From a virus, in the IMG/VR virus record IMGVR_UViG_3300025483_000069, positions 1 through 24,711 of that record: a DNA stretch of 24,711 nt; one strand, given 5' to 3'. Of this stretch, positions 2 to 10,460 are shown one piece after another. A program made the position numbers and the translations under genes. Below the pieces are notes generated by a model that did not search any database, had not been told where the DNA came from, and was given only the letters and a program-made list of their open reading frames with translations. The stretch's first letter is position 1; the number at the start of each line of letters is the position of its first letter.

Positions 2-484
2 TCTGACTCTGCCTCTTCTTCTGACTCTGCCTCTTCTTCAGACTCTTCTTCTGACTCTGCCTCTTCTTCTGACTCTGCCTCTTCTTCTGACTCTGCCTCT
101 TCTTCTGACTCTGCCTCTTCTTCTGACTCTGCCTCTTCTTCTGACTCTGCCTCTTCTGACTCTGCCTCCTCTTCAGACTCTGCCTCTTCTTCTGACTCTG
201 CCTCTTCTTCTGACTCTGCCTCTTCTGCCTCCTCTTCAGACTCCGCCTCTTCTTCTGACTCAGCCTCTTCTTCTGACTCTGCCTCCTCTTCTGACTCTGC
301 CTCTTCTTCTGACTCTGCCTCCTCTTCTGACTCTGCCTCTTCTGCCTCCTCTTCTGACTCTGCCTCTTCTTCAGACTCAGCCTCTTCTTCAGCCTCTTCT
401 TCAGACTCAGCCTCTTCTTCTGACTCTGATTCAAGTTCTTCTTTACATTCTTCAGATTCTTCTTCAGATTCTTCTTCAGATTCT
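2..484 (+). repeat. Tandem 18/15/12-nt repeats encoding DSASSS-type units
   Basis: The basic unit is GACTCTGCCTCTTCTTCT (18 nt), mixed with 15-nt and 12-nt shorter versions. All unit lengths are multiples of three, so the reading frame is kept throughout. Synonymous changes (TCT/TCA, GCC/GCT, TCT/TCC) are scattered between copies. The last units drift to GAT TCT TCT TCA. The structure is prone to copy-number change by slippage or recombination. Confidence 0.95.
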
Positions 485-550
485 AGTGGGTCTGCTAAGA
501 GTTTCTCATCAGTATCAGAATCTCAAGCACAACTCATTGGCGTCGGGTAA
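2..550 (+). CDS. C-terminal part of a Ser/Asp/Ala-rich repeat protein (5' end outside window)
   Basis: One open frame runs from the left edge to a TAA at 548-550 (182 visible residues). It is almost entirely Asp-Ser-Ala-Ser-Ser-Ser type repeats, then a short non-repetitive end (SGSAKSFSSVSESQAQLIGVG-like, last residues LIGVG). The sequence resembles Ser-rich or Ser-Asp stalk regions of surface adhesins; in a phage the likely carrier is a tail fibre or other exposed virion protein, which is inference. Two glycosyltransferase genes follow directly, so the serines are candidate O-glycosylation sites. The opposite strand is also open here (Glu-Glu-Ala-Glu-Ser repeats), but that frame has no ATG, GTG or TTG in the window and begins just after a stop, so I favour the + strand. 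No fold can be recognised. Confidence 0.7.
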   Translation, partial: SDSASSSDSASSSDSSSDSASSSDSASSSDSASSSDSASSSDSASSSDSASSDSASSSDSASSSDSASSSDSASSASSSDSASSSDSASSSDSASSSDSASSSDSASSSDSASSASSSDSASSSDSASSSASSSDSASSSDSDSSSSLHSSDSSSDSSSDSSGSAKSFSSVSESQAQLIGVG

Positions 551-576: not shown

Positions 577-1248
577 ATGAAGAACCTAACTGACTGGTTT
601 GATCGCGTTTACGTGATCAACTGCGCTCATAGACCAGACCGTCTTGAAGAGACGAAGAAGCATCTTGAAGAGACTAGAATGGCGGACAACGACAAGGTCC
701 ACTATTATCCTGCTATAATCGGTGACTGGGTAACTCATCCTGCCGATTGGGGTTCCGGTAGAGGAGCGTGGGGTTGTCTGCGTTCTCACCAAAGAATTCT
801 GGAAGATGTCCTCCACGCTAGAGATGATCGTCATATGATGACTTTAAATAATGTTTTGATACTGGAAGACGACGTCATATTCAAAGAAGACTCTTTAGAG
901 AAGCTTAACGAGTTTATGGAAGATGTGCCGGAGGATTGGGGGCAGATTTATTTAGGTGGTCAGCACCGCAGGACTCCTAAAGATACAGACATCCCTAATG
1001 TTAGAATTGGTAATTCTATTAACCGGACACACGCACACGCAATCAACGGGTCTTCAATAACAGCAGTCTACAGACACATATCTTATGCGACGGACTACCG
1101 GAATACTAACAAGCACGTTGACCACCAACTTGAAGTAGCGCATCGACGTAAGGACTGGCCCGTTTACTGCCCGAAAGAGTGGATCGCAGGCCAGAGAGCT
1201 GGTTCGTCGAATATCAGTGGTAAGGTGAACGAGACTAAGTTTTGGTAA
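577..1248 (+). CDS. Glycosyltransferase family 25 (LPS/collagen-type)
   Basis: This 223-residue protein has the GT25 layout. An N-terminal strand with RVYVINCAHRPDRLE (about residues 10-24) corresponds to the family's vINLdrRpdR motif. GAWGCLRSHQRILE (63-76) matches the GaiGCalSH block. LILEDDV (94-100) carries the acidic metal/nucleotide-sugar motif, and VDHQL lies at 181-185. GT25 enzymes transfer hexoses, for example galactose onto lipooligosaccharide or onto hydroxylysine in proteins. The length is near the usual catalytic domain and there is no signal peptide or membrane segment, so it should act in the host cytoplasm. It starts 26 nt after the Ser-rich gene and overlaps the region just before the next gene. 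The acceptor could be host LPS or a virion protein; the position favours the latter, by inference. Confidence 0.88.
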   Translation: MKNLTDWFDRVYVINCAHRPDRLEETKKHLEETRMADNDKVHYYPAIIGDWVTHPADWGSGRGAWGCLRSHQRILEDVLHARDDRHMMTLNNVLILEDDVIFKEDSLEKLNEFMEDVPEDWGQIYLGGQHRRTPKDTDIPNVRIGNSINRTHAHAINGSSITAVYRHISYATDYRNTNKHVDHQLEVAHRRKDWPVYCPKEWIAGQRAGSSNISGKVNETKFW

Positions 1249-1250
1249 TT

Positions 1251-2300
1251 ATGGAACAGTTCCACAGTCGTAGTGATTTAGTTAGGGGGTTAAAGGGAGT
1301 GGGGGTTGAGCTGGGCGTAGCTAATGGATGGTTTTCTGATAGAATCCTTAGATGCAGTAACTTAAATAAACTATACTCTATCGATATGTGGGCGGGGGAT
1401 AGAGGACACGATTTTCAACAATACAATAAAGCACTAGAGCTTCTAAGTATCCACGGGGAGAGGAGTGCTGTGGTGAGAGCTAAATTCCAAGAAATAGTAA
1501 ATCAATTTGATGATGGGTATTTTGATTTCATATATATAGACGGATATGCCCATTCAGGACAAGACTCAGGTAAAACTTTAAATGATTGGTGGCCAAAACT
1601 TAAAAAGGGGGGTTTATTTTCTGGTCATGATTATTCCTACAGTAGGTGGCCTGATACCTTTAATAAGGTCAACGAATTTCTAAATAAAGAAGATTTGAAA
1701 TTAATGGGTGTTACTAAAGACAAAGACCCATCATGGTATCTTAGAAAGCCACCACTTGCAGAACCGTTGCCCGATGTACTTCTAATAGGGAATAGCCCGC
1801 TAGCATTATCTGATAAAAGGGGCAAAGAAATTGACGAGTTTCAAGGTGAAGTTGTGCGTTTTAATAATGCAGTAACTAAATCATACGAAGAAAAATTAGG
1901 TTCGCGAACTGATGTGTGGTGTACGTGGGGTGGTTGCCCAAGTCCTAATAGCGACATGGCTAAAACAAAAAAAATTCTTTTTAGTATCCCCTTAAAATTC
2001 AACAAGAAATGCTTAGACGCATGGGGGTCGTTATCGAATTGGGAAAGGGAAGTAGTTCATGAGGACTCATTTTATCGGGCAAAACATCAAATGAATTATC
2101 ACCCTAGTAGTGGGGCAATCGCCGCTTCTCATTACATAAACAAAGGGCAAAAAGTGTATATCTATGGTTTTTCTCACTTCGATAATTCATTTAGCCATCA
2201 TTACTGGAATTCTAATGTGGTGAACAGGGACCACTCTCCAGCAAAAGAGAAGGAATGGTTCTCAAAAAAGATCTCTCAAGGTCTTATTCACCCACTGTAA
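1251..2300 (+). CDS. Methyltransferase-GT29 (sialyltransferase-like) fusion
   Basis: This 349-residue protein has two domains. Residues 1-160 look like a class I SAM-dependent methyltransferase (Methyltransf_24-like): VELGVANG (19-26) is motif I, YSIDMW has the post-I Asp45, FIYIDG is at 93-98 and GHDYS at 125-129. Residues 175-340 match GT29: a sialylmotif L (LLIGNSPL, GKEIDEF, VVRFNNA; 177-207), motif S (PSSGAIAAS then KVYIYGFS; 285-308), a motif III-like HHYW (316-319), and motif VS as H328-x4-E333. GT29 enzymes transfer sialic acid from CMP-sialic acid. I start at ATG 1251, 2 nt after the previous stop; an in-frame TTG at 1242 is less likely. The gene looks more AT-rich than its neighbours, suggesting separate acquisition. 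Donor and acceptor are unknown. Confidence 0.85.
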   Translation: MEQFHSRSDLVRGLKGVGVELGVANGWFSDRILRCSNLNKLYSIDMWAGDRGHDFQQYNKALELLSIHGERSAVVRAKFQEIVNQFDDGYFDFIYIDGYAHSGQDSGKTLNDWWPKLKKGGLFSGHDYSYSRWPDTFNKVNEFLNKEDLKLMGVTKDKDPSWYLRKPPLAEPLPDVLLIGNSPLALSDKRGKEIDEFQGEVVRFNNAVTKSYEEKLGSRTDVWCTWGGCPSPNSDMAKTKKILFSIPLKFNKKCLDAWGSLSNWEREVVHEDSFYRAKHQMNYHPSSGAIAASHYINKGQKVYIYGFSHFDNSFSHHYWNSNVVNRDHSPAKEKEWFSKKISQGLIHPL

Positions 2301-2329
2301 TCTCTTTAAACAGCCCTATTTCTCAGTGA

Positions 2330-2358
2330 TTGACTTTACTTTAGCCTAATTGTAAGGT
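2330..2358 (+). promoter_or_regulatory. Sigma70-like promoter for a predicted leaderless mRNA
   Basis: TTGACT (2330-2335), a 17-nt spacer, then TAAGGT (2353-2358). The ATG of the next gene lies 6 nt after the -10 hexamer, so the expected transcription start is the A of ATG 2365. There is no Shine-Dalgarno sequence. The same layout occurs at 18458-18486. It lies in the 64-nt gap between the GT29 fusion and the next gene, the largest gap in the left block. Confidence 0.6.
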
Positions 2359-2364
2359 TATCCC

Positions 2365-6554: not shown

Positions 6555-8703
6555 CCGCTGTATAACCTATATCGTAAATCTCACTCAGGTCAATGCTCCA
6601 CAATTTACCGCCGCCTTGTCCTTGAGAAATAACAGGGCGGATCTTGTTATTGACTCGGCTCGCCTCTTCAAGAGTTATCATCCCCCTTCGACAAAACTCC
6701 AGATTACGAGAAGAACCTACGTCACGCCCGTTGTTCAACTCGTGGAGCGCCACTTGAAACTCCGTAAGAGTCCCGCTCCATAGGTCCAAGTCAGGGTAAA
6801 CTTCTCGGCAACGCTTGGCGAAGAACTCGACCAACTCTGCTATCGAACTGCGGCTGCTGTTATCATAAGCGGCATCTGCAATAGTAGGCTCGATGTATGA
6901 CTTAACTCCGAACCGACCAACATCTTCAACTTCTTTAGGGATCTGCCAGTCGAGTAGGAACTTACCAAAGTGCGGCAGTTCTTGTTCGATGGTAGCTTCT
7001 AGCTGGGCGTTAGGTGGGAATGATGTTGTAGAGGAGTCAGCAATCAATAAGGCCATGAGCTTATCACGATTACTGGTGTCCAAAGAAGGGATCACCGACA
7101 GTGAATTAGCATCCATGTTTAGTGATAGTATCACTCGGCCAGTCCAAGGAATCGACATTGCATCTGCATACTTGGCCATATACTCGACTCTCGGATTAGC
7201 TACCGCACGCTTGAGCAACTCAGTCGCACGTCTCTGGTCTTGAAAGCTAGCTGCTGAGGTCGTATCGTCTATAACCCAAGAGGCGACACGACCTAAGTCT
7301 TTGTTAAACTTCGTCTGACCTGACAGATAATCAGACGCATCAGAGAAACCCCCAACGAGTCCGCTGATAATTTTGTTCGACAGTAGTGACTTGCCACGAC
7401 CTGTTGGCCCGACCAGCAGCAGAGCTTGTCCCTGTAACGGAACCCTATCCAAGACAGCGGTGTAGAAACGCTGCATCCACGAGTAAAAATAATCTAGGGC
7501 TGAGTTCTTTGAGCTATCCACAAATAGCTGATTAAGCCATTGATAGAGGAACGGCCACTTTGATGGGTCACCGTCGGCGTCAGGGTCAACTGGAACTAAG
7601 TTAGAGCAGTTGAGAATCCGGCTCGCGTTGTAAGATACGATGCGCTCGTTTGAAAACACGACAGGAGCAATCTCGTCAATGCGATTATTGTTACTGATAG
7701 TCAACCACGCACTCTCTACTTCACTAACTCCTTGACCTTTTTTAACTCTAGTCGAGAAGCCCGCCTGACGTAGTTCTAATAAAAGTTGATCTTTAGGTAT
7801 CGAGACTGCATTTCCGTATAGTAGCTTGAAAAAGCTTTTCCCATTAAACCAGTATTCGTCGAGTAGGTTAGCTAGCTTCTTGGTCTCGTAGTCTTTGACA
7901 AATGAGCTACCAAAAATATCAGACCAACTCATGAATCCTTTACCAGCTCTGTCGCTATAACAGACGATGCCGTCTTCCACAACCTGACAGCCGTCGCGGT
8001 TGATGCCGTCATCTATCCAGAACAATGGTCCTCTGGCTCCAACTTCAAAATCACCGAACCACCGATTCGGGAATCGGGATTCGACTTCCTCCGCTATGAC
8101 GGGGATGGGGATGGTGGTATCCGAAGTCTCAGGTGGTTTAGAGTTTACAGCTTTTGAAAGGGCGGCATGGACAATGTCCATTGTGACTGGGTCATTTGTT
8201 TTCTGCCAATCCTCACCTAACTCAAAATATTGATTAGCTCTAAAAGACGTAGTATCAAAACCAGCAAACAATTTGCTAATCTTTAGCGTGAGGTTCATCG
8301 CCGATATAAAAGAATCGAACATCGAAGGGTCTATAGGAATCGACTCTTCAAACTCCCACACCAAACGAAGATACCCGCTGTATGTTTTAGAGGACCAAGT
8401 TGGTTTTATCGTTCCCGCACAACTTGTATTTAGTTTTGTTTCAAACGAATTCCAATCAATAGGTGAGTCATAGTCAGCAACAATACCGTGAATTTTGTGG
8501 ACTGGGTTGTCGCCGCTAATTCTTTTACTAGGCGCACGGCCTTCCATCGTCGAGTAAAATACGTGATTTGTTTTAGGGTCACTACACCACTCACGATAAT
8601 TGGCTTTTGATTTAAATTTTGGTTTTTTAGTCGGGAACTTACTGAGGTCATCTGTCTTGGATGTTTTTGTGTCGCGTAGGTTACGCAAATATCTGTAGGT
8701 CAT
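6508..8703 (-). CDS. Primase (AEP-like)/SF3 helicase fusion
   Basis: This 731-residue replicative protein has two regions. The N-terminal part has HGIVADYDS (72-80; Asp77 and Asp79), like the catalytic hhhDhD motif of archaeo-eukaryotic primases, followed by TWSSKTYSGYLRLVWEF (102-118) as the substrate-binding strand and an FDTTSFRANQYFELG segment. The C-terminal part has an SF3-type AAA+ ATPase: Walker A GPTGRGKS (432-439), Walker B WVIDDT (with Asp479-Asp480), and a sensor/motif C region RVILSLNMDANS (523-534). Together these fit primer synthesis and fork unwinding. The start overlaps the stop of polA by 1 nt (TAATG). The primase half is the less certain. Confidence 0.85.
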   Translation of the reverse strand: MTYRYLRNLRDTKTSKTDDLSKFPTKKPKFKSKANYREWCSDPKTNHVFYSTMEGRAPSKRISGDNPVHKIHGIVADYDSPIDWNSFETKLNTSCAGTIKPTWSSKTYSGYLRLVWEFEESIPIDPSMFDSFISAMNLTLKISKLFAGFDTTSFRANQYFELGEDWQKTNDPVTMDIVHAALSKAVNSKPPETSDTTIPIPVIAEEVESRFPNRWFGDFEVGARGPLFWIDDGINRDGCQVVEDGIVCYSDRAGKGFMSWSDIFGSSFVKDYETKKLANLLDEYWFNGKSFFKLLYGNAVSIPKDQLLLELRQAGFSTRVKKGQGVSEVESAWLTISNNNRIDEIAPVVFSNERIVSYNASRILNCSNLVPVDPDADGDPSKWPFLYQWLNQLFVDSSKNSALDYFYSWMQRFYTAVLDRVPLQGQALLLVGPTGRGKSLLSNKIISGLVGGFSDASDYLSGQTKFNKDLGRVASWVIDDTTSAASFQDQRRATELLKRAVANPRVEYMAKYADAMSIPWTGRVILSLNMDANSLSVIPSLDTSNRDKLMALLIADSSTTSFPPNAQLEATIEQELPHFGKFLLDWQIPKEVEDVGRFGVKSYIEPTIADAAYDNSSRSSIAELVEFFAKRCREVYPDLDLWSGTLTEFQVALHELNNGRDVGSSRNLEFCRRGMITLEEASRVNNKIRPVISQGQGGGKLWSIDLSEIYDIGYTADDKRRSSDQEAGTLR

Positions 8704-10460
8704 TATTTTTGGTATTGGGTTAGAATTTCTCCCTCTGCATCCAGAGGAATATCGCTAATCCACTCAGGAGGAGTGGACATAATTTGGGTAATTTTTTGTA
8801 GGGTTTCTTCAGCTTTATCTTCATCACACTCGCAGATTACTTCATCATGAACGTGGAAGATAATATTTATGCCTGCCTTGTCGATCTCTAACATCATGAA
8901 ACTAAAAATATCTCTGGCCAAAGCCTGCGAGAGATTCTCAGCGAGGACTCCACCCCATAGTTTCATGATGCGTTTCTGACCATTTCGGTTAATACTGGAG
9001 ACAAACTGGATTCGTCCTTGGGCCAGAGTCTTGCGAAGATTGCCGTAATTAAGAGACCTTCCTGACGGGAGTGTCAGAGATAGGCGACCAGCATTATATG
9101 CTTTATCGACTTCCTTGTCCAGTTTCTTCCAGTAGCGGGGAACCTTTGCGATCTTCTTCCGATAAAGATTGACAGCATCTTTGGCTTCTTGCTGAGGCAT
9201 ATCGTACATCTCAGCAAACCGATTAGCACCTGCACCGTAGCCGCACCCTAATACAAGAGCCTTAACTTTGTGTCTCAGCTTGGCGTCTTCCTTCTTCAGG
9301 ACTCCCCTATCTTCAGACCACAGACCGAACTGGATTGCGAACGCTTCGTAGATATCATCCGAAGCTTCGATTGCGTCCATTGTCTCTCGGTCTCCTGATA
9401 GCCAGCACAGCGTGCGGACTTCGATCTGCGAGAGGTCAACAACGACTAGCTTCTTACCTTCAGGAGCAGTAATCAAGTTACGCATGTTGACTCCGAACAT
9501 ACCCTCTCTAGGCAAGTTCTGGAGGTTCAGGTTCCCGCCGCTCCCGCTAAAGCGTCCGGTGTGTCCTCCAAAATACATAATCCCGCCGTAGTATCGGTTG
9601 TCCGGCATAGTAGCGTGGTCGAAACTTTCGAGCTTTTTCTTAATCGTGTTGATGCGTCGCCAGTTCGTTACGGCCTCGATCCATTTGTATTTGTGGCCGT
9701 GCGCGAGTATCCATCTCTGGGCATCGACATCAGTTTTAGCGAGAGAAGCAGGAGGCTCGATGCCAAGCTGGATGCAGTGTTCATCAAATGCTTTCCGGCT
9801 CAATAGAGGCTTTTCGTCAGCCCAAGGAATCGACTTCTCAGTTTCAAAGATGAGTTCATTGATTGTCTCTTTCGCTTTACGGAGAGCGTCTATATCAATA
9901 GGGATTCCTCTTTGAACGATTCGTCGGTTGGTAACGCTGATGTCTCGCTCAAACTGAGACCACTTAGACTCATAAGCCTTCCATAGACGGAGACAGAGAA
10001 CAGAATCTTTGATGGCGTATTCTTCTACTTCCTTCTGAAACTCCTTAGTCATACCGGCCCACGTCTTACCAGACATGTTATCACGGGTAGATTTGGAGAT
10101 CTCTAAGTCGAAAGCTTCCGCAGTTGAGTTCTTCAATGATCGTGGCAAACCCACAGCAGCAGCCATGTCAGCAGTGCAGTGCCATTCGGCGGGTTCTACT
10201 TTAGGCCACCAACCATAATTAATGCCGTAGAGGTAAAGTGTTTCATCAAATGATGCGTTATGGGACAGGACAATATTGCCGTTAAGCATCGGCCAGTCAA
10301 AATTTTCAGGGTGGCCAACCCATTCGTATCCGTCATCTCCGACGACACTCACCATATAAGCGTCGAAGTCGTAATGAGAAAAATATCCTAACGGGCCGAG
10401 CTTCCGTATGGAGCAGTGCTTGTCGTAATAGGTCTCAAAGTCTAAGGCGTATGTATTCAT
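8703..10460 (-). CDS. polA: Family A DNA polymerase with 3'-5' exonuclease
   Basis: This 585-residue replicative polymerase has a DEDDy exonuclease: DFET (Asp7, Glu9), SHNASFDE (Asp72), and Y148-x3-D152. The polymerase has TGR (301-303), motif A VVVDLSQIEVR (Asp342), motif B R396-x3-K400-x7-Y408, and motif C FHVHDE (535-540). The residue equivalent to E. coli Phe762 is Leu404 (KALVLGCGYG), the Leu-762 type of many viral PolAs. There is no 5'-3' exonuclease domain, as usual for phage enzymes. No Shine-Dalgarno sequence precedes ATG 10460. It lies just downstream of a terminator-like hairpin. Confidence 0.95.
   Translation of the reverse strand: MNTYALDFETYYDKHCSIRKLGPLGYFSHYDFDAYMVSVVGDDGYEWVGHPENFDWPMLNGNIVLSHNASFDETLYLYGINYGWWPKVEPAEWHCTADMAAAVGLPRSLKNSTAEAFDLEISKSTRDNMSGKTWAGMTKEFQKEVEEYAIKDSVLCLRLWKAYESKWSQFERDISVTNRRIVQRGIPIDIDALRKAKETINELIFETEKSIPWADEKPLLSRKAFDEHCIQLGIEPPASLAKTDVDAQRWILAHGHKYKWIEAVTNWRRINTIKKKLESFDHATMPDNRYYGGIMYFGGHTGRFSGSGGNLNLQNLPREGMFGVNMRNLITAPEGKKLVVVDLSQIEVRTLCWLSGDRETMDAIEASDDIYEAFAIQFGLWSEDRGVLKKEDAKLRHKVKALVLGCGYGAGANRFAEMYDMPQQEAKDAVNLYRKKIAKVPRYWKKLDKEVDKAYNAGRLSLTLPSGRSLNYGNLRKTLAQGRIQFVSSINRNGQKRIMKLWGGVLAENLSQALARDIFSFMMLEIDKAGINIIFHVHDEVICECDEDKAEETLQKITQIMSTPPEWISDIPLDAEGEILTQYQK

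Follow-up and report, generated by a model that had tools for sequence, protein, structure and literature searches.

A methyltransferase-GT29 fusion gene in a variable glycosyltransferase slot of an uncultivated phage

GT29 sialyltransferases are best known as animal enzymes, so what would a phage do with a GT29 domain joined to a methyltransferase, and how did it obtain one? The gene in question lies in IMG/VR record IMGVR_UViG_3300025483_000069 (positions 1-24,711), a linear 24.7-kb fragment referred to here as the window (24,711 nt). Whole-record megablast found no phage relative, and the TerL, a 1,187-aa protein and a serine-rich homologue were each without a close match among annotated phage records. 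TerL relatives at 80-99% identity were found as 181 stretches across many viral contigs, the largest relatives of the record being 56-63 kb; the kind of contigs suggests that the phage group is marine.

A two-domain protein with a GT29 half

The fusion gene and its parts are as follows.

1251..2300, + strand: Methyltransf_24-GT29 fusion gene, 349 aa, variable second slot occupant (Pfam, profile, predicted fold)
1251..1754, + strand: class I SAM methyltransferase domain, residues 1-168 (PF13578; E20-L-G, D45, D97-G-Y-A-H101, H126-D127)
1761..2297, + strand: GT29 domain, residues 171-349 (PF00777; match to ST3Gal1 2wnb; motif coordinates)
1779-1868, + strand: sialylmotif L, residues 177-182 LLIGNS and 201-206 VVRFNN
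2100-2171, + strand: sialylmotif S, residues 284-288 HPSSG and 303-307 YIYGF
2196-2207, + strand: motif III, residues 316-319 HHYW
2232-2249, + strand: motif VS, H328-x4-E333

The reading frame starts with ATG at 1251, and an in-frame TTG lies upstream at 1242. The initial annotation read this single frame as a methyltransferase fused to a GT29 domain, and the Pfam search agreed, both domains exceeding their curated cut-offs: Glyco_transf_29 (PF00777) scored 52.9 bits against 23 (E 4.5e-14, in two stretches) and Methyltransf_24 (PF13578) 52.2 bits against 26.3 (E 1.3e-13, residues 19-128). The four sialylmotifs were located in the order that had been claimed (residues 177-206, 284-307, 316-319 and 328-333), and motifs L, S, III and VS were conserved across 54 viral and 80 bacterial GT29 members. 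A profile built from 27 such domains, both viral and bacterial, matched ST3Gal1 at E 3.4e-32, and ST6GalNAc2, ST8SiaIII and ST6Gal1 at 1e-18 or better. When aligned to ST3Gal1, H328 corresponded to H319, H317 to H302, N181 to N150, N205 to N173, and S286/G288 to S271/G273. In 2WNB (ST3Gal1) we take H319 to be the catalytic histidine of motif VS, and the Asn, Ser and Gly residues to contact CMP.

An AlphaFold2 model of the fusion protein, built on an 86-sequence alignment, was confident for the GT29 half (pLDDT about 74-97 by block), which superimposed on porcine ST3Gal1 (2wnb) with a Z-score of 15.7 and 2.8 A over 174 residues. The 13 best structure matches of this half were GT29 sialyltransferases, followed by the GT42 enzyme CstII (Z 12), and the modelled half has the GT29 fold. 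Membership of GT29 and the fusion to a methyltransferase are secure. The phage domain has motifs L, S, III and VS, a histidine of the catalytic type and the GT-A-variant fold in common with ST3Gal1, ST6GalNAc2, ST8SiaIII and ST6Gal1. Unlike ST3Gal1-type enzymes, it is of phage origin, has about 18% identity to them, lacks a hydrophobic anchor segment and cysteines in the sialylmotifs, and carries an N-terminal methyltransferase. The gene product would be a soluble, cytoplasmic, bifunctional enzyme. In a quick tree the record's GT29 formed an isolated, long branch (best identity about 30%). The tree named no donor lineage and, because of this isolation, specificity cannot be read from the neighbouring branches.

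The structure prediction was less informative for the methyltransferase half, where the model had low confidence values (pLDDT about 51-72). It has a SAM motif and a D...H...HD pattern, and E20, G22, D45, D97, H101 and D127 were conserved in the alignments. Its best fold match was the TDP-rhamnose O-methyltransferase CalS11, with a moderate Z-score of 7.1, and further matches, among them MycF (6.2), lay near Z 6. These matches agree with, and do not prove, a sugar O-methyltransferase; the SAM fold is common to all three, but CalS11 and MycF are stand-alone natural-product enzymes and the half studied here is fused. A stand-alone methyltransferase 54% identical to this half was found in a Parasphingopyxis MAG, with a GT29 gene about 1 kb away.

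When viral contigs were scanned for members of this methyltransferase subfamily, 80 loci were obtained, and 14 GT29 ORFs were found in them. All 14 were fused to the methyltransferase or overlapped it by a few bases, and both domain orders occurred (L032/L383 have the order of the record; in L355 and L403 the GT29 domain comes first). Because several of these contigs are near-copies, there are fewer than fourteen independent cases. In the quick GT29 tree the methyltransferase-linked members required at least five changes, two of them forced by well-supported branches, so that on present sequences the pairing is likely to have arisen repeatedly. Functional coupling of the two halves is supported.

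Exchange of whole genes between constant flanks

The fusion gene is bordered by the following features.

2..550, + strand: serine-rich repeat (SDSASS)n protein, C-terminal part, cut by the record start and ending in GSAKSFSSVSESQAQLIGVG
577..1248, + strand: GT25-type glycosyltransferase, constant first cassette gene (PF01755, E 1.3e-7)
2314..2364, + strand: right-hand boundary of the slot (CCTATTTCTCAGTGATTGACTTTACTTTAGCCTAATTGTAAGGTTAT) and leader of g3, near-identical in L310, L311, L313, L314 and L320
2365..3327, + strand: g3, conserved gene flanking the slot, present in 16 of the 38 TerL relatives searched

The fusion gene itself was absent from the 38 related records searched. Upstream of g3 in 14 relatives, and around 20 GT25 homologues, the common layout was a serine-rich gene, GT25, a variable gene and g3. 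The relatives L310 and L311 aligned to the record at 96-99% identity in the left flank, as far as base 1220, and at about 95% in the right flank, where the match resumed at base 2314-2317; no similarity was seen from 1221 to 2313. The leader of g3 was near-identical whatever gene preceded it, homology resuming at 2314-2318 in most relatives. The slot is empty in L313. It holds GT8-type genes in six loci, Gly_transf_sug-type genes in several, a second GT25-like gene in L312, a fusion of GT2-like and Methyltransf_24 domains in L327/L328, and in L311 a gene with an N-terminal domain that has no Pfam assignment and a C-terminal Methyltransf_24. Every occupant assignable by Pfam was a glycosyltransferase (GT8, GT25, Gly_transf_sug, or GT2-like plus methyltransferase). 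The slot is a site of module exchange at gene boundaries, which close relatives fill with GT8-, GT32- or GT25-like enzymes or with other methyltransferase-linked glycosyltransferases.

The composition of the gene points the same way. It had been described as AT-richer than its neighbours, as if separately acquired, and both the replacement of other genes in near-identical relatives and its G+C content (39.3%, versus 46.1% for the record) bear this out. No other long gene in the record is as AT-rich; among non-overlapping stretches of 1,050 bases, just 0.05% had a G+C content this low, GC3 was 0.349, and the low G+C extended through both halves (38.7 and 40.0%). The codon comparison did not add to this, synonymous codon choice being not significantly odd (z -1.7), and codon usage was dropped as proof of transfer.

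The block at 2314-2364 is strongly conserved and non-coding, and is possibly a promoter or leader.

Acceptor, donor and competing readings

The genes upstream of the slot suggest what the enzymes would act on. In 2-550 an 18-bp in-frame tandem repeat codes SDSASS, serine makes up 115 of the 182 residues, and the tail GSAKSxSSVSE of this protein is kept in most relatives. Among viral contigs the adjoining GT25 gene has 20 relatives (67-99% identity), and in 13 of these 20 loci the stop of the serine-rich gene overlaps the GT25 start, such that GT25 would be translationally coupled to the serine-rich gene in most relatives. Read upstream of g3, all nine GT25-bearing relatives reached at least 43% Ser over 30 aa, versus never above 37% in the five GT25-less ones, a correlation drawn from related phages that are not independent. 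The serine-rich protein of L323 also carries bacterial surface Ig-like repeats. Outside this phage group, the viral GT29 motif scan gave no Ser-rich ORF at a 50% threshold in 70 loci. L361 was the only case of a Ser/Thr-rich protein near a GT29-methyltransferase pair; in this viral contig, unrelated to the record, a mucin-like Thr/Ser-rich protein lies directly 5' of a cluster of GT2-like, methyltransferase, GT29 and Methyltransf_24 genes, the methyltransferase being 50% and the GT29 29% identical to those of the record. Since a serine-rich gene is followed by a constant GT25 gene, the serine-rich protein is the likely target; we regard it as the best candidate acceptor, and it may be located in the virion.

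In staphylococci, SdgB and then SdgA glycosylate serine-aspartate repeat adhesins in steps (PMC3794999). There two enzymes act on Ser-Asp repeats; in the phage, a gene for a Ser-Asp-rich repeat protein stands ahead of two enzyme genes (2-550, 577-1248 and 1251-2300, the serine-rich gene and GT25 recurring in 20 further loci). The likeness is one of gene layout and of how such a system would work. SdgA and SdgB add GlcNAc, whereas the phage enzymes are by Pfam a GT25 and a swappable GT29-methyltransferase. Mycobacteriophages carry glycans on their own capsid and tail tube proteins, at the C-termini, according to PMC11256854 and PMC12619734 (citing Freeman et al. 2023); those are other phages, and in the passages concerned neither a serine-rich repeat protein nor module exchange is reported.

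Evidence on the donor sugar comes from other phages. NeuB or NeuA was found near GT29 in 13 of 48 viral loci, versus none of 80 control loci (TerL set). In L020, a 200-kb viral contig, a CTP_transf_3 (NeuA-type CMP-sialate synthetase) domain is fused to GT29 and NeuB is the next gene, and the uncultivated huge phage LR756508 (484 kb) encodes NeuB together with at least five GT29 ORFs. These cases suggest that phage GT29 enzymes usually draw on CMP-nonulosonates, and a CMP-activated acidic sugar is the probable donor of the record's enzyme. NeuB was absent from 11 large relatives and none was recognised in the window; because the phage group lacks it, the host would have to supply the donor.

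In outline there is good support for the proposed mechanism, in which an acidic outer sugar is added to a glycan primed by GT25 and is O-methylated. The GT25-type enzyme would begin a glycan, most likely carried by the serine-rich repeat protein. The GT29 half would then move an acidic keto-sugar (sialic acid or another nonulosonate, with CMP-Kdo possible) from its CMP donor onto this glycan, and the Methyltransf_24 half would O-methylate a sugar of the glycan, probably the cap; the methylation site is presumed to be on a glycan sugar. For the full proposal, that one bifunctional enzyme adds and O-methylates a CMP-derived acidic sugar on a GT25-begun glycan, the probable carrier being the serine-rich protein that the phage itself encodes, we see an even chance. 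With GT25 constant and the second enzyme interchangeable, the phages would therefore keep the core and change only its outer sugar. That an abundant group of uncultivated marine phages makes an analogue of sialylated mucin, a serine-rich protein of the virion bearing a core sugar from the constant GT25 and an outer sugar (here an O-methylated nonulosonate) that differs between close relatives through a one-gene swap, is offered more tentatively and is somewhat doubtful.

The main rival to the serine-rich protein as acceptor is the surface glycan of the host. The same enzymology would then place a methylated acidic sugar on the LPS or capsule of the host during infection, so as to keep competing phages from adsorbing or to free progeny from receptors. 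GT25 is an LPS-biosynthesis family, NeuA/NeuB sometimes lie near bacterial GT29 loci (11 of 116 loci, among the matches listed), and rapid exchange of surface-modifying genes would be expected between close relatives. However, the cassette adjoins structural-type genes and an endolysin and stands directly 3' of the serine-rich gene, whose stop codon in most relatives overlaps the start codon of GT25, and serine-rich tracts are missing where GT25 is missing. No integrase was recognised within the window, which may leave little time to remodel a host. A host target is fairly unlikely on this evidence.

A further reading concerns the donor. GT29 motifs recognise mainly CMP, and CMP-Kdo, which is present in nearly all Gram-negative hosts, has been proposed as donor for plant GT29 relatives. 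The GT29-fold enzyme might therefore use CMP-Kdo or another CMP-sugar, with the methyltransferase acting on Kdo or on the underlying sugar, and the failure to find NeuB in the record's large relatives fits such a donor. The donor genes beside phage GT29 genes are nevertheless of the NeuB/NeuA types, including one direct fusion, and we consider this reading quite unlikely. Least credible, and very improbable, is a chance fusion of two unrelated activities in the variable slot, the methyltransferase acting on DNA or protein. Such slots do collect unrelated genes, and PHROG names the methyltransferase family 'DNA methyltransferase'; this label was rejected on the Methyltransf_24 domain and on the sugar O-methyltransferases among the best fold matches. 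Chance pairing was rejected likewise, as GT29 was fused to or overlapped the same methyltransferase subfamily in all 14 cases in other viral contigs and in both orders, and two other slot occupants, those of L311 and of L327/L328, end in a Methyltransf_24 domain, which in one of the two follows a GT2-like domain.

If a surface glycan is indeed the product, the slot offers a testable case of its diversification in phages by one-gene exchange between constant flanks. The serine-rich protein, GT25 and the second enzyme form a defined three-gene unit for expression in a laboratory host, and a compact cytoplasmic GT29-methyltransferase could serve as a tool enzyme.

Separately, L361:852-1883, the mucin-like gene, codes a tract of considerably more than 100 Thr/Ser residues followed by Pro/Thr and EPPGT repeats. 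L020:6530-7972 and 7969-9015 look like a unit with which a single phage both makes and transfers the donor sugar.

GT29 genes in phages and bacteria

GT29 had been called rare in bacteria and phages, which is true of sequenced phages: one GT29 query matched 1 of 50,697 annotated phage records, the huge phage LR756508, and we found no paper on GT29 in tailed phages in the open-access literature. The claim does not extend to uncultivated viruses or to bacteria. The single fusion protein used as query found no relative in IMG/VR and GTDB contigs because its own peptides are too divergent, and a five-domain GT29 alignment also found none. A DNA pattern for sialylmotif L gave 68 stretches in IMG/VR from one pattern, and the two pattern scans yielded 49 non-redundant viral proteins, all matching PF00777. 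The same motif scan of GTDB genomes gave at least 116 stretches, with a PF00777 match in 79 of 80 tested loci. In Pseudomonadota, GT29 was present in 9 of 398 genomes, including the centre genome chosen for having GT29.

One review describes bacterial sialyltransferases as lacking sialylmotifs and not belonging to GT29 (PMC4202792), and another confines GT29 to eukaryotes and some viruses (PMC6104685). Contrary to both, GT29 as recognised by motif and Pfam match is widespread in bacteria, and in viral genomes it often lies beside sialate-synthesis genes. GT29 proteins (L082-L197) occur in many bacterial phyla, for example in Idiomarina, Helicobacter, Rhizobiales and Verrucomicrobiota, and are missing from the reviews.

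Four of the GT29 ORFs of LR756508.1 lie in L003:5947-10768, immediately preceded by nucleotide-sugar dehydratase/epimerase-like genes. The viral contigs L014, L016, L024, L028, L029, L056 and L078 each have two or three GT29 genes, in some cases arranged in tandem.
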